Shown here: positions 9,030-59,285 of the stretch, piece by piece
Layout of the letters: every line of letters starts with the position of its first letter
Numbering within the stretch: position 1 is the stretch's first letter
IMG/VR virus record: IMGVR_UViG_3300000325_000003
Span: 1-62,831 of that record
Source of the DNA: a virus
Reading direction: 5' to 3' (one strand)
DNA length: 62,831 bases
Translations under genes and position numbers: made by a program
The notes under the pieces: model-generated
Told to the model about the DNA's origin: nothing
Databases searched by the model: none
What the model saw: only the letters and a program-made list of their open reading frames with translations

Positions 9030-9077
9030 CATATAAAGACCGACAGGGTATGATTACGAGATATAAGGAGAAGCAAT

Positions 9078-11585
9078 ATGAGAAAAGAACAAGATGTAAA
9101 TGCGTTCCTAAGAGGCATCCTCGAAAAAGAGGTCGGGGATAGCTTCACAACAATATCTGGTCGAAATTGGGCTACCGATGGAGTCTTAGATTGGGAAACA
9201 CCAAGTAAGACACCTGTAAGGGTTTTACTTGAAGCTAAGTATGGCACAGACCTAACGATTGAAACTGCTCGATCAAGTGTTCTTGCTCAAGCTCTCTATT
9301 ACTGCAAGAGGTTTGAGGAAAATGGGCATGATCTACCTAGCGTCATTTTCATTGGAGATGAAAAGTTTTGCTTTGTGGTGAGTTTTGAGTCTATCAAAAG
9401 TTTCTTAGACGCTAACATAGATTGGGGTAGACGACCTAGTTCACCCGATCCCGAACTAAAGGTAGCCGTTGATGTGCATCTTGAGTCTGTGTTTGAAGTA
9501 GATGGGAAGAAGCTCAAACAACTTTGTGAGCAACTATCCGAAGGGGCTATTGTTAAGGTAAAGCCTTCGGAGAAGAACATCAGTGCAATGTATCAGTATT
9601 GGGTTGATCATATCTTTCCTAAAGATCGTTATCAGCCTGTTGAGATGATCGACCTTTTCTTCGGGTGTGTGTTTTACTCAGAGGAAGATGGCAACTATGC
9701 TTATGAACACCCTTCAAAGAAAGACACCATCATCTTGGGAGGCAAAGAGTACACTCTAAACCTTTCCTCTATGCGAGCATTCTTTGAGCGTAGAGAGCGT
9801 GGTTTATCTGCAAAAGACATTGATAAGCTATTATCTATGAGAGATCGTATCATCGAGGACGATACTCGTAGACGACAAGGTGCGTTCTATACACCTACTT
9901 TATGGGTAGATGAAGCACATTCTGAGATGGACAAAGTGCTTGGTGAAACATGGAGAGATGACTGTATCGTGTGGGATTGTTGTGCTGGTACAGGTAACTT
10001 GACTAGAGACTATGACTTTAAGAATCTTATCTTATCTACTGCTGAAGAATCAGATGTTATAGCAATGAAAAGAGAAGAATATAATTATGGGTCAGAGGTC
10101 TTTCAGTATGACTTTTTAAACCCAGAAACAGAAAGTCCATTCTTTGAGGGAACTGACAATGTATTGCCCTTATCTGTAAAGAAGATCTTAAAAGAAGGGG
10201 CAGAGAGTGGAAAGCGATTAGTATTTCTTATTAACCCTCCTTATGCTACCGCAGGTATAAACGGAAAAAAAGGAACTTCAAAAGAAGGCGTAGCTAAGAC
10301 TATTGCAAATGAGGAAATGAAAAAAGCAAAATTAGGGTCTTGCTCTCAACAACTTTATACTCAGTTCTTATTTCAATGTGAGCGAGTAGCGTCTGAGTAT
10401 GGATTTAAAAGTAAGAGCGTAGGCGTGTTCTCCCCCCCACTTATTATAACAAGTGGTTCTTTCTCTAAGTTCAGGCCCTACTGGTATAGCCGTTATAATT
10501 ATAAGTCTGGCTTTATGTTTCAAGCGTCCCATTTCGCTGATGTGAAGGGGTCTTGGGGCGTTAGCTTTACACTGTGGAACGAGGGCAAGACTAATATAAA
10601 GCAGGACTTGCCTGTCACTTTAAAAGACATAAAAGATGATAGTATCATTTCCCTTTCTGAAAAGTATCTTTACACTTCCGATGGCAGAGAGGCTTCAAAA
10701 TGGGCTATGGCTTATACAGAAAGAGGAATTTTAGATTTACCACAACAATCTTCTGGATTGTCTTTAAGTAAAGATGGTAATTGTCGTGTGGCTTCCCCCC
10801 ACCTTTGTTACATGAACAACAAGGGGAATTGTATAATGTATAACGCACAAGAGGTTTATATCACTTCTAGTGCTTGTAGTCGAAATAGGGGTTTCTCTTT
10901 AAATGCAGGTGAAAGCTGGAGACGAGCTATCGCCCTTTACTCAGCACGAAAACTCGTAAAGGGTAATTGGGTAAATGACAAAGACGAATATCTAGCTCCT
11001 CAGACTGAGAAAGAAGGTTATGAACAATGGGTAGATGACTGCCATGTTTATGCTCTACTTCATATTTCTAACAACATGACCTCTATGAGAGATGTCGAGT
11101 ACAAAGGTAAGACTCATAACATCCACAACCATTTCTTTTGGTTGACTCGTAAAGAAGCTCTTGACCTGTATGGCTCACATAAGAGTGCTAGAAGCCTTTA
11201 TCGTGATGCCAAAGCAAATCCGATTCCCTCTCACCATGAGGGTGGTCTCGTAGACGCATCAGAATGGACTAAGAATGGCGACCCTTACTTTTCCCATGTC
11301 TTACCCTCGCTTAACCTTTCACCTCTTGCTCAAGAGATCATGAGCGATCTAAACGATCTTTTTGTTGAGAGCTTTGAGCTGAGGTCTAAGACATCAAAAG
11401 TCATTGAGAAAGGTAAGGAGATTGATCTCCATCTCAACGCTTGGGATGCGGGTATCTATCAACATAAGAAAATGTGGTATACTGAGCCTACACTTAAAGC
11501 TAAGTGGGAGTCCTTAAGGGTAAAACATCAACAGCTCGCTAAAAGCCTTGAGCATGGTGTCTACACATTCGGGTTCTTAAAGTAA
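9078..11585 (+). CDS. Type IIG-like restriction-modification protein (PD-(D/E)xK nuclease + adenine methyltransferase)
   Basis: 835 residues. The N-terminal domain carries D38 (G-V-L-D-W) and E52-A-K54 (L-L-E-A-K-Y-G), a PD-(D/E)xK nuclease core. The central domain has the SAM-binding motif V-W-D-C-C-A-G-T-G-N-L (from residue 298) and catalytic N386-P-P-Y of gamma-type N6-adenine methyltransferases. Residues ~430-830 probably form the target-recognition and spacer region. This order is that of type IIG enzymes, which cut and methylate DNA from one polypeptide. A phage copy could modify phage DNA or attack competing DNA. An alternative is a methylation-only enzyme with a structural nuclease remnant. 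Motif B precedes it. Confidence 0.75.
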   Translation: MRKEQDVNAFLRGILEKEVGDSFTTISGRNWATDGVLDWETPSKTPVRVLLEAKYGTDLTIETARSSVLAQALYYCKRFEENGHDLPSVIFIGDEKFCFVVSFESIKSFLDANIDWGRRPSSPDPELKVAVDVHLESVFEVDGKKLKQLCEQLSEGAIVKVKPSEKNISAMYQYWVDHIFPKDRYQPVEMIDLFFGCVFYSEEDGNYAYEHPSKKDTIILGGKEYTLNLSSMRAFFERRERGLSAKDIDKLLSMRDRIIEDDTRRRQGAFYTPTLWVDEAHSEMDKVLGETWRDDCIVWDCCAGTGNLTRDYDFKNLILSTAEESDVIAMKREEYNYGSEVFQYDFLNPETESPFFEGTDNVLPLSVKKILKEGAESGKRLVFLINPPYATAGINGKKGTSKEGVAKTIANEEMKKAKLGSCSQQLYTQFLFQCERVASEYGFKSKSVGVFSPPLIITSGSFSKFRPYWYSRYNYKSGFMFQASHFADVKGSWGVSFTLWNEGKTNIKQDLPVTLKDIKDDSIISLSEKYLYTSDGREASKWAMAYTERGILDLPQQSSGLSLSKDGNCRVASPHLCYMNNKGNCIMYNAQEVYITSSACSRNRGFSLNAGESWRRAIALYSARKLVKGNWVNDKDEYLAPQTEKEGYEQWVDDCHVYALLHISNNMTSMRDVEYKGKTHNIHNHFFWLTRKEALDLYGSHKSARSLYRDAKANPIPSHHEGGLVDASEWTKNGDPYFSHVLPSLNLSPLAQEIMSDLNDLFVESFELRSKTSKVIEKGKEIDLHLNAWDAGIYQHKKMWYTEPTLKAKWESLRVKHQQLAKSLEHGVYTFGFLK

Positions 11586-15129: not shown

Positions 15130-15597
15130 ATGTTTCTTTTATACGCTATACTATCCTACCTCCTCTGGGCATACATACACGAGTACGCTCACCTGCTAAC
15201 CGCTAAAAAACTCGTAGGAGTCAAGTCTTACTCCATGAAGATCTATCCTCATACCCATCCTCGACTTGGACTTGTGTTCGCCTCTGTCAGTTATGAGTTT
15301 GAAAAAACCATGACCAAAGCTGAAAAAACTAAGATCTCTTTCGCTCCACGAATCCCAGACGCAATCGCTCTTTTCCTGTTCCCCTTCACTTATAACTTAG
15401 ATCTCTTTTGGATCATATTAGTTGGAGGGGGTTTGGTCGATACCATAAGAGGTTCGTTTATCTTTAGCCCTACAAGCGACATCAAGAGATATTGTGATGG
15501 TTGGGGTTTACATTACCCCTACATCAGAACAGTCCAGTTATCGCTTGTAGGATTAAGTCTCTCTCTCTTTATTCTCCTTAGAGGATTACAAAGTTGA
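15130..15597 (+). CDS. Integral-membrane zinc metalloprotease-like protein (M50/DUF3267-like)
   Basis: 155 residues with strong AAGGAG upstream. The first helix contains H-E-Y-A-H (residues ~17-21), an HExxH zinc site embedded in a membrane segment (L-L-W-A-Y-I-H-E-Y-A-H-L-L). Three further hydrophobic segments follow, and S-P-T-S-D-I-K-R-Y-C-D offers an Asp that could be the third ligand. This layout is that of mini site-2 (M50-like) intramembrane proteases. It is very short for the class. A phage copy could cut host anti-sigma or signal proteins; an inactive membrane protein is the alternative. Its 3' end overlaps the convergent giant fibre gene by 20 bases. Confidence 0.6.
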   Translation: MFLLYAILSYLLWAYIHEYAHLLTAKKLVGVKSYSMKIYPHTHPRLGLVFASVSYEFEKTMTKAEKTKISFAPRIPDAIALFLFPFTYNLDLFWIILVGGGLVDTIRGSFIFSPTSDIKRYCDGWGLHYPYIRTVQLSLVGLSLSLFILLRGLQS

Positions 15598-18500
15598 TAA
15601 CAAGAGTTGCATCTGCGGAAAGTTCTCCACCTGTACGATTTACAGCACAAAACTTAAAGCTAGTTGCATTAACGATAGTGTGTGCATAAACCTCAACATT
15701 CTTGTCTTGGCAAGTAGCGAGGATTACGCTTGTGGATAATGCAGAGGTATTATTCACAAGAAAATCGATTGAGTGTGCGTCATCTGCAATTGCAGTGTCT
15801 ATTGTTGCTGTCACTTGGAAAGACTTAGTGTTGGTAGCAAGTAATGGGTTGTTACTTGCTCCTTCATCTCCTGTAAGCCCTGTAGTTTTAGTGATTGTAA
15901 GACTACCCGAATCAATGGTGACTTCTTGATCGTCCTCAATAGTCATAGCAAGAGTTCGAGCGTTTTCTACTGACGCTCCACCATCGGCTGATCCACCTGT
16001 CTTAAACTCAATCGCACCACCTGTGGCATTACCTGTGGAAGCACCACCACTGATCGTAAGAGTAGTACCTGCGGTATTATCTGCACCAAGAGCAGAACCA
16101 CCACGAAGCGTTCCGAGATCCACAGTAGAAAGATCTCCATCAGGAACAGCATAAGTATCCGCTGGCTCTGCTACAGATGCTCTACCATGAAAAACCTTAA
16201 AGACACCACCCTTACCACCTGCGGTGTCTGCGGTTTCATAAACCATACCCATTAAGTAGTCGGCAGAGTTTGTATCTCCATACGCACCCACAAAACCAAC
16301 ATCTCTATCATCAGCCGTACTCTGATAACCAAGATAAACAGTTGGGTCTTTAAAGAGCAAGGAGGTCGAGACCGCACTGCTATTTTGAATCACACCTGAG
16401 ACAGTTAAGTTCCCAACTATAGCTGTTGTAGCTTCGGTTATGGTAAGAGTAGCGTTATCTGTATTAACGATGGTCGCACCACTACCGAAGTCTAAAGTAT
16501 TACCTGTTACTGTAAGATCTCCTGCTGTGATTACAGTCGAACCTGTGTGTCCACCAAGAGTCATTGAGTGGGTATTTCCTACAGAAGCACCGAGAATAGT
16601 TCCGTTTGAGAAGTCAATGTCTCCAGCGAAGGTTGCTTTCTTTAAATGAGTTAGAGTGAGGACAGGAGCAAGAACCGCACCATTCGCACCCGCTGTCTGA
16701 AGAACAAGATCACCACCATCGCCTGTACCAACACCTCTACCAGAAGATAAGGTAAGAGTAGCTCCATCTGTGTTCCCTGCGGTTTGAGTTGGAGCTTTAA
16801 TGGTCGTTGCAGTCGAAGTACCCACCCCTAATACGATGTCATTCCCACCAACAGTAAGATCACCCGCAACAGTAAGCATTTCATCAGTGTCCATAGTAAG
16901 AGTAGTAGTACCCTCACTATTTTGAATGATGTTATTGTTGATTCTGAGATCACCCGAAAGAATCGTAGTGGTTGCAGTTAGAGTGGTTGAAAACCCTGCT
17001 CCTGCAAAGGTAATGACAGTATCTGCATTCGCATTTTTAATATCATTTCCACCAACTTGAAGATCAGCAGAGGTCTTAACAATGTCTTCTGTTAAGAGTA
17101 GTGTACCTGCTGTAGTTGAGTCGATGATTGAACCTTCAGTTAGGTTGATCTTACCACCAAGTACCGTAACATCACCTGCAAAGGAGGCATTTGATGAAGT
17201 TGCAGTGTCATGTGAGGTTAAAGTGAGAACACCTTGATAACTAGCATCGCCTGTCTTCTGACCACTGATGGTAAGAGTACGAGTACCCTCATCTGATCCT
17301 GTGATCGTCCAACTATCACCATTCGCAGTACCCAAAGAGGACTGAATGTTGATCACTGCATTTGTAGCGTCTGCCGCTTTGACTGTAAGATCACCACCAT
17401 TAATATTAGCATCACCTGCAATAGTGAGGACACCTGCTTCATCAATAGAAGCGATTTCTGCGTCTAATCCATTCTGGAAAGTGAACTTATTATCGCCATC
17501 GGCATTCTCGTCCACCCTAAAGAGAATGTCCCCATCTGAGTGGAACGCTAATGTCGGACTTGCAATTTTACCATTGGTAAGAGTGAGATTACCAATGGTA
17601 GTGCCTGTAAAGAAAGAGGAAGCTACTGTGGTGTCAGTGATACCACCTACTGATACTACTGCACCCCCAGTGCTAACAGTAAAGTTTTGTGTTCCAATCG
17701 CAGTACCCACAGAGAAGTTGGTGTTTGAATGAAATTTACCACCATCTACAGTGAATGAATCTGCCGAATCATCCCACTTCAAGTAAGCGTCAGTGCCATT
17801 ATCTCCACCCTTTACAAACAAGAGACTGACATCTGTGTTCGCTCCACCTTTCGCCACATCAGTGCGATCAGAATTGAAGATGATAGCGTTTCCGTCAGTG
17901 GGTGCTGACTTGACCTTAAGCGTATCGTCTAAGGTAGAAATACCTGTGACACCCAAAGTGGTCGTGATAACAGTCGCACCCGTATTTGATACGGTGAAGA
18001 CAGAAGCATTAACATCAATACCACCATTAAGGTCTGCAAGACCACTGACTCCAAGAGTACCTGTAATGTCGAGGTCATAAGCAGGAGCGGCAGTCTTGAT
18101 ACCAACTCGATCATTACTCGCTTGAGCAAAGATCAAGTTAGCATTGCCATCACCCTCAACCCTAAAGTCGATGTCCACACCACCTTGATTGAACACAACC
18201 TCTTCTGTGGTATTTGTAGTGACGAAGGTGAGGTAAGATTGAGTACCGTTAGCCTTAACATCTCCTTTGACTTCAAGAGATGTCGCTTCATTATCAGTGA
18301 GGTTAATATCGAGGTCAGAACCTGCGATACTTGAAACACCACTGATCGCACCTGCTAGCGTGATACCACCACCAGAAGCGTCCAAAGAATCAACTGTAGT
18401 CGCACCGAAGTCACAAACACCTGTTGTTGTTAAAGTGTCATTACCAAAGGTAATCGCATCAGTACCAGAGGCGATTGATCCATTATTGATAGTGAAGTTA

Positions 18501-20326
18501 GCAATCGTGTGTCCCACGCTATCGGTGGTGATCACACCTGTATTACTTACTGAGAAGTTTGAAGCTCCATCAACAGCACCTTGTGTGATTGCACCTACAA
18601 CATTTAATCCATCGGTAACTGAGAAATAAGCCGAGCTTGTGTCCCAAACTAATGAGGAGTATGTAGCACCACGATCCACTCTAATAAGAGTCTGATTCTC
18701 ATCATCGGCTTCGTCATGTCTGAAAGTGATTCCTGTGGAGCCTACAGCATCAGTGATATTAATGTTTCTTGTAACAATAAGATCTTGTCCAACAGTCAAG
18801 TCTGTTGCAGTAGAAACATTATTACTAAACGCCCATGTTGAAGAAGCGTTTGTCCAAGTAAGAGTCGCGTATGTTGGGCCATTGGTAAGGGCTACACCGA
18901 TTACAGCATTTGCGGGGGTGTTATCTGTAACAACATCACTATTAAGAAGAAGGCTATGGGTTGCCCCTTTCTTAATATTAAGGTTTTTATTAGATGCAAC
19001 AGTCACATTATCATTAAGGGCAGAAGTACCCGCAATCGTAAGTGTCCCTGCCCCTGTTGTCGAAACATTCCCACTTGTAGTTAGGTCTTCTGCTCCGAAG
19101 TCTAGGTCATTACCCGCTGAATTGATTGCTCCATCAGCTAAAACAAGATTACCAATGGTAGTGCCTGTTTTGAAGGAAGAAGCTACTGTGGTGTCAGTGA
19201 TACCACCAACAGAAACAACAGCACCCCCAGTGCTAACAGTAAACTTATTCCCGCCATTATCAATCTCAATACCACCATCAGCATTTAAGAGTCCTGTAAC
19301 TCCAACAGTAGTACCAAAAGTACCTGCACCTGTGGCTGTAAGAGTTAATAACTGCAATTCTCCAAGGGTGAGGTTTCCACCAAAATCTGTTGCAGTGTGG
19401 GCATCAGTGGTCGTACCAAGTTTGAAGATGTCATCACCTTCATCCCAGAAAATAACAGCGTCATTCCCTGTTGTACCACGCTCTAAGAATAATCCGATGT
19501 CATTGGTGTTTGCAACACCAGCAACACCCTTATTAAGTCTAATGACAGTATCTTCTACATCTAAAGTTGCGGTGTTTACTGTGGTAGTGTCTCCATTAAC
19601 AGTGAGATCACCTGCAATCGTCATGTCGTTTGCAATCGCAACAGTAGAAGTACCACCACCTAAAGTAAGAGTCTTCGCTCCAATATTTGCCGCAATACTA
19701 GCGTGTTCAACTGTAAAGTCAATCCCTGTCATACCAGCAAGGGTAGTGGAGCCTGCACCTAAAGAAATGCTTGTTGAGCCTACTGTCAGAGATGAGTTCT
19801 CCAACTTAGCGTTGGTCACATTATCATCTAAGATTTTTGCAGTGATGACTTTATCTGCACCGATTGAGGAAACCCCCGCATTAGTGATTGTCACATCACC
19901 TGAGAGGGTTACATTTTTCCATTGGTCATCTGCATCCCCACCATCATTATCATAGACGAGAACTTGAGCGTCAGCGACACCTGCAATCGTCACATCATCA
20001 ATGTCATTCAGATTTGCAGACCCACCCAAGTCAACATATGCTTTGGTAGCGGCATCATTATTTGCAGTAGGGGTAGCGAGGTTTGTAATTCTTACAGTGG
20101 CATCCCCTGCGGAGTCTGCAACAGAGATCGTACCATCCACAGCCAAGGCATTTGTGCCGAGATTGGACATATCCGCTTTTAGCGTTTCAGTACCACCTTG
20201 AGTTGCCCCATCATGTACAAGAATGGTTTTCTTTGTGGTGTCGATGGTAATTTCACCAACTGCACCTGTGAAAGCCTCATTTTCAGCAGTTGTACCTCTT
20301 CTTAATTGAACTCTTCTTACAGACAT
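15578..20326 (-). CDS. Giant tail-fibre protein 1 (1582 residues)
   Basis: The N-terminus (S-V-R-R-V-Q-L-R-R-G-T-T-A-E-N followed by G-A-V-G-E-I-T-I-D-T and V-H-D-G-A-T) is the virion-attachment module found at the start of many phage fibre and tropism-determinant proteins. The remaining ~1500 residues are a Gly/Thr/Ala/Asp-rich array of imperfect repeats (T-I-A-G-D-L-T-V, G-G-I-T-D-T-T-V-A-S-S-F, L-T-N-G), probably a long triple-stranded beta shaft. The last ~110 residues (from about N-T-K-S-F-Q-V-T-A-T) form a distinct distal domain likely to bind the receptor. A duplicated block (V-S-V-G-G-I-T-D-T-T-V-A-S-S-F with surrounding bases) shows internal expansion. Long antisense frames here are composition artefacts. 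Confidence 0.85.
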   Translation of the reverse strand: MSVRRVQLRRGTTAENEAFTGAVGEITIDTTKKTILVHDGATQGGTETLKADMSNLGTNALAVDGTISVADSAGDATVRITNLATPTANNDAATKAYVDLGGSANLNDIDDVTIAGVADAQVLVYDNDGGDADDQWKNVTLSGDVTITNAGVSSIGADKVITAKILDDNVTNAKLENSSLTVGSTSISLGAGSTTLAGMTGIDFTVEHASIAANIGAKTLTLGGGTSTVAIANDMTIAGDLTVNGDTTTVNTATLDVEDTVIRLNKGVAGVANTNDIGLFLERGTTGNDAVIFWDEGDDIFKLGTTTDAHTATDFGGNLTLGELQLLTLTATGAGTFGTTVGVTGLLNADGGIEIDNGGNKFTVSTGGAVVSVGGITDTTVASSFKTGTTIGNLVLADGAINSAGNDLDFGAEDLTTSGNVSTTGAGTLTIAGTSALNDNVTVASNKNLNIKKGATHSLLLNSDVVTDNTPANAVIGVALTNGPTYATLTWTNASSTWAFSNNVSTATDLTVGQDLIVTRNINITDAVGSTGITFRHDEADDENQTLIRVDRGATYSSLVWDTSSAYFSVTDGLNVVGAITQGAVDGASNFSVSNTGVITTDSVGHTIANFTINNGSIASGTDAITFGNDTLTTTGVCDFGATTVDSLDASGGGITLAGAISGVSSIAGSDLDINLTDNEATSLEVKGDVKANGTQSYLTFVTTNTTEEVVFNQGGVDIDFRVEGDGNANLIFAQASNDRVGIKTAAPAYDLDITGTLGVSGLADLNGGIDVNASVFTVSNTGATVITTTLGVTGISTLDDTLKVKSAPTDGNAIIFNSDRTDVAKGGANTDVSLLFVKGGDNGTDAYLKWDDSADSFTVDGGKFHSNTNFSVGTAIGTQNFTVSTGGAVVSVGGITDTTVASSFFTGTTIGNLTLTNGKIASPTLAFHSDGDILFRVDENADGDNKFTFQNGLDAEIASIDEAGVLTIAGDANINGGDLTVKAADATNAVINIQSSLGTANGDSWTITGSDEGTRTLTISGQKTGDASYQGVLTLTSHDTATSSNASFAGDVTVLGGKINLTEGSIIDSTTAGTLLLTEDIVKTSADLQVGGNDIKNANADTVITFAGAGFSTTLTATTTILSGDLRINNNIIQNSEGTTTLTMDTDEMLTVAGDLTVGGNDIVLGVGTSTATTIKAPTQTAGNTDGATLTLSSGRGVGTGDGGDLVLQTAGANGAVLAPVLTLTHLKKATFAGDIDFSNGTILGASVGNTHSMTLGGHTGSTVITAGDLTVTGNTLDFGSGATIVNTDNATLTITEATTAIVGNLTVSGVIQNSSAVSTSLLFKDPTVYLGYQSTADDRDVGFVGAYGDTNSADYLMGMVYETADTAGGKGGVFKVFHGRASVAEPADTYAVPDGDLSTVDLGTLRGGSALGADNTAGTTLTISGGASTGNATGGAIEFKTGGSADGGASVENARTLAMTIEDDQEVTIDSGSLTITKTTGLTGDEGASNNPLLATNTKSFQVTATIDTAIADDAHSIDFLVNNTSALSTSVILATCQDKNVEVYAHTIVNATSFKFCAVNRTGGELSADATLVINFVIL

Positions 20327-39212: not shown

Positions 39213-40148
39213 CTATAAAATACCAAGCACTCCGACTTTAAATTTCAACCAGGAACTCCTACCACCAGAAACCACATTGTTTTCGCACTCATAAAGCACA
39301 TTTAGAAGTCTTCTCAGATTAACAACCCCCCCAAAAGTATAAATCTTGGGTGTCATAAAGTTTTTTATGGCATAAGGATTTTTCCCTAAATCTTCTGCGA
39401 TATGATCCAAAGACATCTTTGCTTCCACTCGCAGACCTACCTCAAGTAGGTTGATACAGTTCGACAATAAGATCCCATTACAGACTGCCATCGTTTGATC
39501 TGTCTTGGACGAACGCTCTATCTTTTCACAAACCTTGATGAACGCTTTATGATTCCTCTCCATGATCGCATTTGAAAGATCAATAAAGCTCGCTTCTGTT
39601 AAGTCAGAAATCAAGTTCATTACAATGTTGGGAGTGATCTCTTCTTCTTCCCCCACTGCATAAACATATTTGACGACTTCCCATCGTAAAGCACCAAGAT
39701 CAATCCCTACACGATTAACAATTGCACGACACAACACAGGGTCGATCTTCTTCGCATACTTTCCAACATACTTATGCAACCAATCACTCGCCCATTCTTT
39801 TTTCTGATCCTCATATTGAGGTTCGTCTAGTTTACGATTCAGATAACCTTCTAAGGCTTTCGGTAAACGATCATTCGTGTGAACTACTAAGACCTCACTA
39901 CCACTCCTCGATTTGAGGTGCTGTTCTAACTTCTTGTTCTTTGTTGGATTGGTCAACACCACAAAGATCGGGTCGGTATCAAATAAACCAGATTCAAAAG
40001 ATGATGTAAGATCATCTGTCTTAGCGTCTACCTCACGAACATCATATCCATTAGCCCGATACTCAAGGGTGATGTCTCTAGCTGTCAACTCAATCCACTG
40101 TTTTGATGACCCATATAAGACCATCACATTCTCATCATTCCCTCTCAT
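39213..40148 (-). CDS. DNA polymerase III delta subunit-like clamp-loader protein
   Basis: 311 residues. Starts with M-V-L-Y-G-S-S-K-Q-W-I-E-L-T, a degenerate Walker-like loop as in HolA (which does not bind ATP). The middle has Y-A-K-K-I-D-P-V-L-C-R-A-I-V-N-R and D-L-G-A-L-R-W-E-V-V-K-Y, matching the conserved helical lid of delta subunits. The C-terminal helical collar follows. It overlaps the delta'-like gene by one base (40148), so the two proteins are translated as a pair. Together they could form a minimal clamp loader for the phage or hijack the host gamma complex. Confidence 0.7.
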   Translation of the reverse strand: MRGNDENVMVLYGSSKQWIELTARDITLEYRANGYDVREVDAKTDDLTSSFESGLFDTDPIFVVLTNPTKNKKLEQHLKSRSGSEVLVVHTNDRLPKALEGYLNRKLDEPQYEDQKKEWASDWLHKYVGKYAKKIDPVLCRAIVNRVGIDLGALRWEVVKYVYAVGEEEEITPNIVMNLISDLTEASFIDLSNAIMERNHKAFIKVCEKIERSSKTDQTMAVCNGILLSNCINLLEVGLRVEAKMSLDHIAEDLGKNPYAIKNFMTPKIYTFGGVVNLRRLLNVLYECENNVVSGGRSSWLKFKVGVLGIL

Positions 40149-40729
40149 TATTTAACCCCCAAGAAATAACCATATACGCACACTTTGCGTATATGAGGTC
40201 GTTTAAGGACTGCTTTAAGTTCATCGTCATAACGCTCTACCAACCCCTCATCAACCAACACATCCACATATGCTTCAAGAAAAGCTCTATGTTGCCCCTT
40301 TTCGATCTTTTTAAGACAATCAGATACTAGGACAAGGTTTTCATCTAAAGTAGCCTTAGAGAGCGTTTTAGCGTCCTCATAAAGTGGGTGTTGAGGTTGA
40401 GGCTGATAATGAAACCTCTCCCCACATCTTGAACGAATGGTTTCGGGTACAGAACCATAGTCTCTAGCCCATAAGATCAGTTCGGGGGCTGAGGGGTAGG
40501 GTTCTTCAATCCTCTTAAGTAAGATATCTAAGGTTTGAGGATTCGCTTCGTCAAGAGGACCTGCTACTAAGAGAGGATTATCATGAGGCCAAACTTGAGA
40601 GTACATCTCCACAAGCTCTTTAACAGCGTCAGTCTTTAAGTCTTGATAGGGAGGTTTGATGAGGGTTTTCCCCTCCATGAGGTCAGATAAAGCCCTCTCT
40701 ACTCCCGATCCATGATGTATAAACAGCAT
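40148..40729 (-). CDS. Clamp-loader delta'-like protein (truncated AAA domain)
   Basis: 193 residues. The segment L-L-K-R-I-E-E-P-Y-P-S-A-P-E-L-I-L-W followed by T-I-R-S-R-C-G matches the sensor-1 region and SRC motif of delta'/DnaX/RFC subunits. The Walker A and B parts are shortened or missing (H-H-G-S-G-V-E-R-A at the N-terminus), so ATPase activity is unlikely. A helical C-terminus replaces the collar domain. It lies upstream of and coupled to the delta-like gene. The AAAGGAGA site precedes the ATG. The divergent control region to 40795 carries a possible promoter-like TCTTATATGAAACTTACG. Confidence 0.7.
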   Translation of the reverse strand: MLFIHHGSGVERALSDLMEGKTLIKPPYQDLKTDAVKELVEMYSQVWPHDNPLLVAGPLDEANPQTLDILLKRIEEPYPSAPELILWARDYGSVPETIRSRCGERFHYQPQPQHPLYEDAKTLSKATLDENLVLVSDCLKKIEKGQHRAFLEAYVDVLVDEGLVERYDDELKAVLKRPHIRKVCVYGYFLGVK

Positions 40730-40794
40730 ATAGTCTCCTTTCTTTTACTCTTATAGGTTTTACCCTTTACATCAACTCGTAAGTTTCATATAAG

Positions 40795-41425
40795 AGTGAT
40801 CGTGTCATCCCTTTGGGGAGTTGTCTCTAGTCCTCTTAAGTGAGATCAAGACAGGAGATGGATAACAACCATTAGGTGGGATAGTCTACTTGTAGTACGC
40901 ACCTAACGACACAAGATTAACTGTTCATACGCCGTGGCTTACATATATCCCTAACCTCTTAGTCGAGATTGGGTATGCTCCAGGGGAGAAGATCTGACTT
41001 AATACACTTGTTAAGTTTCATTCTAGGAATACCTCAACTAGATCAGATTAGTCTCTTGCCCGTAACTTACATTAGATACTCTTTAGAGTAGATAAACTCT
41101 TAGAGGAGTATACTCTAAGAGTTAGTAAGATACGAAGTATCGCTAGAGTTAAAAATAATACTAAGAAAAAAACTACAACAACTTTAACTGTTACAAGTTC
41201 AAGTTCTACATCTACGAATATAGCTTCAGCTAATATGAGTTCTTCTACTATATGTCCTATAACATCTTAACCTACATCTTCTACATCTTCGATTCTTCCA
41301 GATGTATGTCTTTTAAAGACACCTTATCAGTAAGGATAAGGTATCAAAAGATAGTATTTCCTCTTAGTAAACAGAGGAAATACGATATAATCTCTCTAAG
41401 ATACTAAGAGAGAGATTAATAGAAA
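40795..41425 (+). ncRNA. Large hairpin-rich non-coding region, candidate ornate RNA
   Basis: A ~630-base stretch with no coding frame and dense inverted repeats: TTAGGTG/CACCTAA at 40872 and 40910 enclosing a nested GTCTAC/GTAG-T-AC stem; TACTCT-TT-AGAGTA at 41077-41090; ACTCTTAGAG/CTCTAAGAGT at 41096 and 41113; GATAC/GTATC at 41129; ACCTTATC/GATAAGGT at 41321 and 41335; GTATTTCCTCT/AGAGGAAATAC at 41354 and 41373; AATCTCTCT/AGAGAGATT at 41389 and 41409. Many independent perfect stems in one region point to a structured RNA. Size and setting recall the ROOL/GOLLD class of giant phage RNAs, but I cannot verify the class. The strand is most likely plus, since a CATATAAGAG promoter-like sequence lies at 40791; the opposite strand is not excluded. 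Confidence 0.5.
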
Positions 41426-41427
41426 AA

Positions 41428-41751
41428 ATGAAATTAATAGAAATCAACCTATCTGGAACAAAGGAAGAAAAGGTAAAGAGTTTATGTGAAGCTCTTAGCA
41501 GGAGGTTCTCAGGTTGTACTCTCTACAGGACTATCGGTTATTGGAGTGATGAGGGTTATCTGTTTAAGGAATCTTATGAGGGTATCAAAGAGGAACAGGG
41601 GTATGGGATAAAGGTCTTAATAGAAGAAGATCTTGATCAAGTGGAAAAGATCATAAGAACCTACTTATCGGAAACAGAAATAAACTGGGTTCAAGTAGTC
41701 TCTTATAGGGTAGATATTCATCATGTAAACTTGGGGAGTTTAAGGGGGTAG
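41428..41751 (+). CDS. Small acidic protein, unknown
   Basis: 107 residues. A compact alpha/beta protein (S-L-C-E-A-L-S-R-R-F-S, Y-R-T-I-G-Y-W-S-D-E-G-Y, L-S-E-T-E-I-N-W-V-Q). The ribosome site is weak (GAGAGATTAATAG). The W-S-D-E-G-Y phrase is reminiscent of the W-S-x-x-G-I phrase of the small paralogue family at 59.8-60.7 kb but the rest does not match. It follows the hairpin-rich region directly, so its translation could be controlled by the RNA. Function unknown. Confidence 0.45.
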   Translation: MKLIEINLSGTKEEKVKSLCEALSRRFSGCTLYRTIGYWSDEGYLFKESYEGIKEEQGYGIKVLIEEDLDQVEKIIRTYLSETEINWVQVVSYRVDIHHVNLGSLRG

Positions 41752-57817: not shown

Positions 57818-59245
57818 TCAACCCTCTACTATACCACTCTCAAAAATGTGTTCTAGCATATCTACAATTGTTTCTATGCTCTCTAGTGTTCTCCCCGATG
57901 CAGTGAGCCTACGCATACTTGCTGTTCGAGTCGCCTCTCGAACAAACATCAGAGGGTCGAAGTGGAGCTTGGTCTTACCTGTGGTAATACTTTCTTTGAG
58001 CGTGTTTTGCATGGACGCAGTACTTAAGAATCTTAGCAAAACTTCTGGGTTGATATAAGATTTCTTAGTTGTACTGCCACTATCATGGCTTAATGCCACC
58101 TGTGCTCTTTCATGTGCTTTATTGATTGTGTCTGATACAATTTCAACAACCCGTTGGGTCAAGTCTTCAGTTTCTAGTTCTGCGACTTCTTTAATCTTTT
58201 CAAGCATCGAGTCTCTTTCTTCTTGGAGTCCATCAAACACCTCTTGGGTCGCTCTTAACTTCCTAAAGTCAGTGATCTTAAAACCTTTGAAATTCTCTTT
58301 AAAGTATTTCGCAAGATGTCTATAAGTGAACTTCTCTCCCTCACTAGTAACGAAGATATACTCAGAGCCAGATTCTAAGGCGTTGTCTACATAGTCCTTT
58401 AAAACTTTGATGATAGATGAGTTGGATATGGAAGCTGTATTTACCGTTCCCATTTTCCCTCTGAAGACCAACTCGACAAAATTGTTTCGGACAAAGTTGA
58501 CATGGGTGGCGTTCAAAGTGATTGCACCGAATGTTTCAACCTGCACTTCTTGTTCCTCCACAGTTTCTACAATCCCATTCCCTATTTGTCCTGGTCTTAT
58601 TCCTGTTTCCATGATGATTGAAGTAATGATTGCAGATAACTTGGTTAGTTCATCTTTTGACTTGAGGTCTTTTTTAATCTTTTTTACGATGGTGTTGTAC
58701 TTTTTGATGAGCTTCTTTTGAGACTTGATCTTCTCGGCTAAAGTATAAGTCTTGTTGCCGAACATATCGTTAATCGTCTTGATGTATCCCTCATCATCTA
58801 CATCAATCGTGATTGTGTCGGGCAGGTACGCCCTTAACTCCACAGGAATGGCAGATTTAAGAGGGGTTTGTTTTTTGTGGAGTTCTATCGCCTTAAAAGA
58901 CCTAACACTGTTTTTTTTGAATGTCTCGCTTACCTCTTTAAGAGGCTTTTGCCCAGCTAGGTAGTCTCGTATGAGGTACATCGTTGCATTTCTCCACGAA
59001 TATGCTTTATCGCTTACCTCATCTGACCCCACAAACTTATTCATGAACCCTAAGACTTGAGACAAGTTTTTAATCGACTTAACTATATGTCTTTTCCTCT
59101 TACCTATAACTGCTTTTCCCCTACCTTTGTGTTCAGATTTAGCTTGCACCCCATAGCTTTTAAGGTCTTTCAACAGGACTTTAAAGGCAGTAAGGGATTT
59201 GCGTTGAAACGCAGAGATTTTTTTTTCCTCTTGTGGTGTCGGCAT
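57818..59245 (-). CDS. Type IB DNA topoisomerase (viral/bacterial type)
   Basis: 475 residues from the ATG at 59245, which follows AAAGGAGAATTAAA (the frame opens from 59275). The catalytic residues are in order: R217 (E-T-G-I-R-P-G), K264 in F-R-G-K, R328 and R331 in D-F-R-K-L-R-A-T, H387 and nucleophile Y397 (K-K-S-Y-I-N-P). F-G-A-I-T-L-N-A-T-H-V before the Lys is also diagnostic. Topo IB relaxes supercoils by a 3'-phosphotyrosine. The N-terminal ~130 residues are a basic helical domain; the C-terminal ~75 residues include A-T-R-T-A-S-M-R-R-L. Phage-encoded topo IB is uncommon. It may relieve torsion during replication or act with the SNF2 and GHKL ATPases. Confidence 0.85.
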   Translation of the reverse strand: MPTPQEEKKISAFQRKSLTAFKVLLKDLKSYGVQAKSEHKGRGKAVIGKRKRHIVKSIKNLSQVLGFMNKFVGSDEVSDKAYSWRNATMYLIRDYLAGQKPLKEVSETFKKNSVRSFKAIELHKKQTPLKSAIPVELRAYLPDTITIDVDDEGYIKTINDMFGNKTYTLAEKIKSQKKLIKKYNTIVKKIKKDLKSKDELTKLSAIITSIIMETGIRPGQIGNGIVETVEEQEVQVETFGAITLNATHVNFVRNNFVELVFRGKMGTVNTASISNSSIIKVLKDYVDNALESGSEYIFVTSEGEKFTYRHLAKYFKENFKGFKITDFRKLRATQEVFDGLQEERDSMLEKIKEVAELETEDLTQRVVEIVSDTINKAHERAQVALSHDSGSTTKKSYINPEVLLRFLSTASMQNTLKESITTGKTKLHFDPLMFVREATRTASMRRLTASGRTLESIETIVDMLEHIFESGIVEG

Positions 59246-59285
59246 TTTAATTCTCCTTTTCTTTAGTGGTATCATAAATGAAATA

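Follow-up and report, generated by a model that had tools for sequence, protein, structure and literature searches.

ROOL and GOLLD form RNA cages with disordered linkers, and ROOL is often encoded near tRNA islands (PMC12286853). Judged by architecture and phage origin, these two families appear to be the nearest known relatives in kind of the RNA described here, which lies in an IMG/VR record of a tailed phage (62,831 nucleotides or 62.8 kb; the whole stretch is called the window below). Like ROOL, it is a large, highly structured phage RNA with a disordered internal linker (PMC12286853). Unlike ROOL, it is linked to a clamp-loader gene with no tRNA island nearby, and its disordered part is triplet-periodic and G-poor. 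With GOLLD it shares the phage origin, a size of several hundred bases and a division into conserved and variable parts (PMC12286853). However, GOLLD is conserved at the 3' end and less so at the 5' end, whereas the present RNA has a conserved 5' body and a variable 3' tail, again with no tRNA near it. OLE is also a large ornate RNA with many covarying helices, found in bacteria (PMC12286853); the present RNA differs in that it has no Rfam match. As in tmRNA, a structured RNA is combined with a start-less reading frame, but ARAGORN finds no tRNA-like domain and the frame has no fixed place relative to the body.

To our knowledge, OLE does not occur in such a setting. Few large structured RNAs combine many covarying helices with the lack of a known protein partner, and the roles of most of them are unknown. 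A search of the open-access literature found no report of an RNA like this one from huge phages. In our interpretation, the region encodes a large non-coding RNA, stand-alone and trans-acting, in a clade of huge phages, and we give this reading a probability of roughly 0.68.

The RNA lies in a 698-base gap (40730-41427) between the start of a minus-strand gene at 40729 and that of a plus-strand gene at 41428 (Table 1). No ORF of at least 60 aa was found in this gap. When the plus strand of the gap was folded (701 nt), it reached -179.8 kcal/mol, compared with -150.9 +/- 7.4 for 20 dinucleotide shuffles, none of which was as good (z -3.9). The minus strand also folded better than its shuffles (z -3.4); therefore, energy by itself does not give the strand. 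Between 40795 and 41425 we counted five compact perfect hairpins with stems of at least 7 bp (shuffle mean 1.1; 1 of 300 shuffles reaches five) and three with stems of at least 9 bp (shuffle mean 0.08; 0 of 300). A repeat search listed 15 inverted-repeat pairs of at least 8 nt, of which five were perfect. The original prediction had described 40795-41425 as a hairpin-rich non-coding region, and the lack of an ORF, the excess of perfect hairpins and the fold energy bear this out. Its count of seven or more perfect inverted repeats was slightly high, as five are perfect at strict settings, while the hairpin richness itself is real. The nested multi-stem that it noticed corresponds to a three-way junction (40984-41057) conserved by covariation, and its 5' edge at 40795 falls just after a conserved -10 box (40789-40794).

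Table 1. Coordinates of the RNA, its neighbours and other products encoded in the window (window positions unless a record is named).
Feature	Position	Strand	Remarks
RecD2 helicase; ribonucleotide reductase	encoded in the 62.8-kb window		
DNA polymerase III delta- and delta'-like proteins	encoded in the 62.8-kb window		
Tail protein with Mtd_N domain; tail-fibre-like protein	encoded in the 62.8-kb window		
delta'-like clamp-loader gene, 193 aa	40148-40729	-	PF13177, E 2.7e-6; constant neighbour of the RNA
-10-like box TATAAG of the delta'-like gene	40750-40755	-	putative, from sequence and inverted repeat
RNA promoter TTTACA-17 nt-TATAAG	40766-40794	+	transcription start expected near 40801
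5' domain, hairpins	40801-40857	+	lineage-variable; local folds
Helix Pa, ATGG/CCAT (GTAGG/CCTAC in others)	40858-40872	+	two-sided changes in 2/4 pairs; 96.9% paired
Helix Pb, TAGGTG/CACCTA	40872-40906	+	helices 2 and 3: 6/11 pairs changed on both sides
Unpaired linker ACTGTTCATACGC	40920-40932	+	near-invariant in the alignment
Helix Pc (GGC/GCT, then TA-CCC/GGG-TA)	40936-40979	+	variable tip
Three-way junction Pd	40984-41057	+	long outer stem; hairpins 40997-41016 and 41022-41042
Domain B, junction closed by CTTAC/GTAAG	41066-41129	+	perfect hairpin 41095-41123 (11 bp)
Terminal hairpin GATAC-gaa-GTATC plus G	41129-41142	+	3' landmark
Tail, G-poor, triplet-periodic	41143-41303	+	largely unstructured
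Tail in other lineages	L054 5332-5600; L074 4107-4560; L079 8653-9040		
3' hairpins	41282-41418	+	41282-41306, 41318-41345, 41351-41386, 41388-41418
107-aa gene (orphan)	41428-41751	+	3' flank of the gap

The comparison rests on eight distinct homologous sequences, all from one clade of uncultivated phages. Neighbouring proteins used as queries led to four near relatives; L004 (a 227-kb record) and L005 (376 kb) are 82-83% identical to the window over the region, and L002 and L003 are identical copies. A wider search added L015 (312 kb), L017 (105-kb and 177-kb records) and L054 (297 kb), in which the region aligns only in parts. The RNA is kept in six divergent huge-phage lineages, in every one of them upstream of the same divergent delta'-like DNA-replication gene and adjoining it. 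The IMG/VR records with syntenic homologues reach 376 kb. In the 376-, 312- and 297-kb records, the terminal 60 bases of either end recur at the other end, indicating that these are probably complete phage genomes. In a 290-kb phage and in L079 the intergenic region extends to about 1.7 kb, and none of its ORFs exceeds 82 aa. When the region was searched as DNA in 50,697 phage records, no match was found.

All eight sequences have a TATAA box in the corresponding position, with a TTGACA-like (TTGNNN-like) hexamer 16-18 nt upstream of it; the -35 match of L015, L017 and L054 was read by eye. No promoter is listed by a strict consensus scan, in which the -10 box has to end in T. The boxes of the RNA sit back-to-back with those of the delta'-like gene. 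A 9-bp inverted repeat (40747-40755/40789-40797) had been considered as the first stem of the RNA, and is probably better read as the two -10 boxes of these back-to-back promoters.

Downstream of the promoter, the 5' domain is 91% identical to L004 over all columns, compared with 73.7% at third codon positions of the neighbouring gene. The internal loop of Pb (GGGATA...TAGTACG) is conserved. In Pc every cell with letters is paired, and L015 and L017 carry compensatory changes. The three-way junction (helices 6-8) has 16 of 23 pairs changed on both sides, one of which is seen as UA, GC, AU and CG. Domain B, 97.6% identical to L004, shows compensatory changes in L005, from AACTCTTAGAG/CTCTAAGAGTT to ATCTTTTAGAG/CTCTAAAAGAT. 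The terminal hairpin, ending in GTATCG, is found in seven of the eight sequences, and L054 keeps only AAGAGTATCG. The 3' hairpins as a set are limited to the close clade, with 96% ungapped identity to L004 at 41311-41420; they could be either the 3' end of the RNA or a leader of the next gene.

The conserved core comprises about 200 nt (40858-41059), for which we drew a 49-pair structure by comparing six sequences. In these, 95.5% of the cells are paired and 19 pairs have changed on both sides; no shuffle was as good, and controls with slid partners gave at most five. This count was made on the same six sequences from which the structure had been drawn, and the blind scan reported below weighs more. 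In the set of eight, with pairwise core identities down to 56%, 96.5% of the cells are paired over the 49 pairs. Two-sided changes occur in 26 of the 49, a number that leans towards the model, as the alignment was fitted to R1, a covariance model made from six sequences. None of 500 shuffles was as good, and sliding the partners left 5-6 pairs at most. RNAalifold, run without a supplied structure, recovered Pa, Pb and the three-way junction, with 24 of 43 pairs covarying. The paired cells of the alignment hold 39 G.U as against 3 A.C, an excess which indicates that the RNA is on the + strand.

We then have the scan of R1 over 13 whole records, which gave one strong match outside the training loci, in the 290-kb phage (70.4 bits, E 1.6e-17); the next best score anywhere in these records was 19 bits. 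The match lies directly upstream of a delta' homologue (60% identity), and the other marker proteins are elsewhere. The lineage of L076, L079 and L080, brought in by a short motif pattern, scored 113 bits (E 1.1e-29), and its RNA adjoins a delta' homologue with 57% identity. The family defined by R1 thus has both the core fold and the linkage to the delta'-like gene. That the region encodes a real, conserved, structured RNA is in our view virtually certain.

Outside this family, a scan of 80 bacterial genomes with R1 gave no match at E <= 0.001. The 485-kb record LR745208 has a relative of delta' and no R1 match. Fourteen motif-scan matches in genome contigs were not confirmed by R1 and were taken as chance, as was a second, weak R1 match in G006 (19 bits), which coincides with a 146-aa ORF. 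In the more distant contigs G004 and G005, the sequence upstream of delta' is gene-poor over about 400-500 nt, and this stretch has one end rich in ACT/ACA. With R1 run without filters, the best scores in these contigs fall at the syntenic place, at just 7.4-7.7 bits (E ~0.2); these are hints of a far-diverged form of the RNA, which we do not claim. Stretches of this kind lie upstream of delta' at 2500-3060 of L143 (minus strand) and at 700-1215 of L144 (plus strand). These two seem to have hairpins in common, with compensatory changes, and R1 gives no confident recognition of them.

An alternative that has to be considered is that the RNA is a long cis-acting 5' leader (a riboswitch, attenuator or antitermination element) controlling the downstream operon. 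Indeed, a plus-strand operon follows it in every lineage, in L054 it runs straight into the gene down2, and a search for a plus-strand intrinsic terminator found none between the RNA and the operon. However, a leader or riboswitch would be expected to precede one constant type of gene, which is not the case here. Depending on the lineage, the RNA is followed first by an orphan of 107 aa, another orphan of 439 aa (in a shorter form in L017), down2 itself (L054) or the RecD2 helicase (L074 and L079). Four different following genes beside a constant delta' make a stand-alone, trans-acting RNA likelier than a leader. In addition, the structured body of L079 is separated from the gene by about 1 kb that contains no ORF, and in the 290-kb phage down2 and down3 are about 13-15 kb away while the RNA is still with delta'. 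In the window, a TATAAT box near 41385 stands upstream of the 107-aa gene. A leader is therefore unlikely, and the RNA is probably stand-alone and trans-acting. As it is always in cis to the replication genes, a role at that locus is also possible.

The palindromes could instead act as DNA, for example as initiator or repressor sites of a replication origin or regulatory region. The place between divergent genes, one of them for replication, would suit such an element, and some of the inverted repeats are back-to-back promoter boxes. Against this, G.U is kept in 39 of the paired cells and A.C in 3, though both would be mismatches on DNA, and the junction stems covary as in RNA. Three whole records have no consistent extremum of the cumulative GC skew at the locus. 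We regard a DNA element as very improbable.

The terminal hairpin is followed by a tail of roughly 140-450 nt with 3-12% G. In the window 88% of its C falls in one triplet phase (0 of 300 shuffles). The phase is kept throughout the tail in seven of the eight sequences, and in L074 all ten 45-nt blocks agree. The tail reads like a Thr/Ser/Pro-rich protein in a frame that is open for 36-146 codons, in the window for 41 Ser/Thr-like codons with a single ATG near the end, and its indels are multiples of three. These properties would be in line with a tail translated without AUG, with the body as an internal entry or tmRNA-like element. However, six of the eight sequences lack a start codon in frame, stops follow soon after the fold in L074, L079, L015 and L017, and the offset of the frame to the fold is 1 or 2 depending on the lineage. 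Substitutions hit the three codon positions about equally (4/3/4 and 9/7/6), selection at the codon level is not apparent, and the ARAGORN search for tmRNA was negative. On the substitution pattern, the missing start and the unanchored frame we rejected the tail ORF as a gene, and engagement of ribosomes by the tail has only a very slim chance of being correct. We take the tail as a non-coding tract, probably the product of triplet slippage together with G avoidance.

Membership in ROOL or GOLLD, suggested by the phage setting, the size and the structured body with a disordered linker (PMC12286853), can practically be dismissed, as the RNA is not near tRNAs and neither family is matched at the Rfam gathering score or found among the weak matches. 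None of 4227 Rfam 15 families reached its gathering threshold in the window. Weak matches (RT-14, HrrF, an RNase P fragment, a CRISPR repeat) were far below threshold, disagreed between homologues and were rejected; for the window, L015, L017 and L054 all matches were sub-threshold, with no ROOL, GOLLD or OLE among them. The models of ROOL (RF03087, cut-off 99.1 bits) and GOLLD (RF02032, cut-off 150 bits) stayed below cut-off throughout the window and seven related records, and were silent in the control genomes as well, 14 in the case of ROOL. The best GOLLD score anywhere was 10 bits, in another part of G006. The 62.8-kb window contains no tRNA, and the nearest tRNAs in G010 and G003 are more than 40 kb from the RNA. 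The large structured phage RNA of the original prediction is therefore supported by covariation among homologues, and the unknown RNA class that it offered as the other possibility fits better than ROOL or GOLLD, for which nothing over cut-off was found with models that are silent in controls too. Of the observations named there as speaking against an RNA, lack of covariation is strongly contradicted by the two-sided changes in the core. With respect to Rfam 15, the family is very probably new.

For the stand-alone RNA, we propose that it would be transcribed together with the replication genes and fold into the three-way-junction body, the second junction domain and the terminal hairpin. It would end in, or pass through, the long disordered G-poor tail. 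The body might then be a scaffold of RNA or ribonucleoprotein, and the tail, rich in C, A and U, conceivably a multivalent binding tract. Either the RNA would be encapsulated as in the RNA cages of ROOL and GOLLD, or the tail would bind a host protein such as Rho. A scaffold or decoy is a tentative suggestion, and a homo-oligomeric cage is a doubtful one. Less probable still is a new ribosome- or protein-engaging machine made of a structured body and a start-less, triplet-phased, nearly G-free tract. Either ribosomes that have not initiated or an oligomeric RNA-binding protein would read or bind such a tract in three-base steps, and host translation or transcription would then be taken over during phage replication.

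The locus adds a strongly covarying RNA family that was confirmed by prediction in lineages beyond the training set and occurs in complete-looking phage genomes of 297-376 kb. Its fixed place beside a replication gene offers a handle on when the RNA is made and what it serves.

Some further observations concern the surroundings of the RNA. Downstream of the tail, L079 has many copies of GGATAAG (9040-9460), and the structured part of this RNA contains several copies of the complement, TTATCC; a long-range pairing between the two is possible. In the window, the homologues of the clamp-loader subunits delta and delta' adjoin (39213-40729), and the delta'-like protein, at only 193 aa, matches just part of the usual domain. 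The 1582-aa tail protein (15578-20326) carries an N-terminal Mtd_N domain, which we take to be of the kind found in diversity-generating tropism proteins. A protein with a eukaryotic-type topoisomerase I (type IB) catalytic core domain is encoded at 57818-59275.
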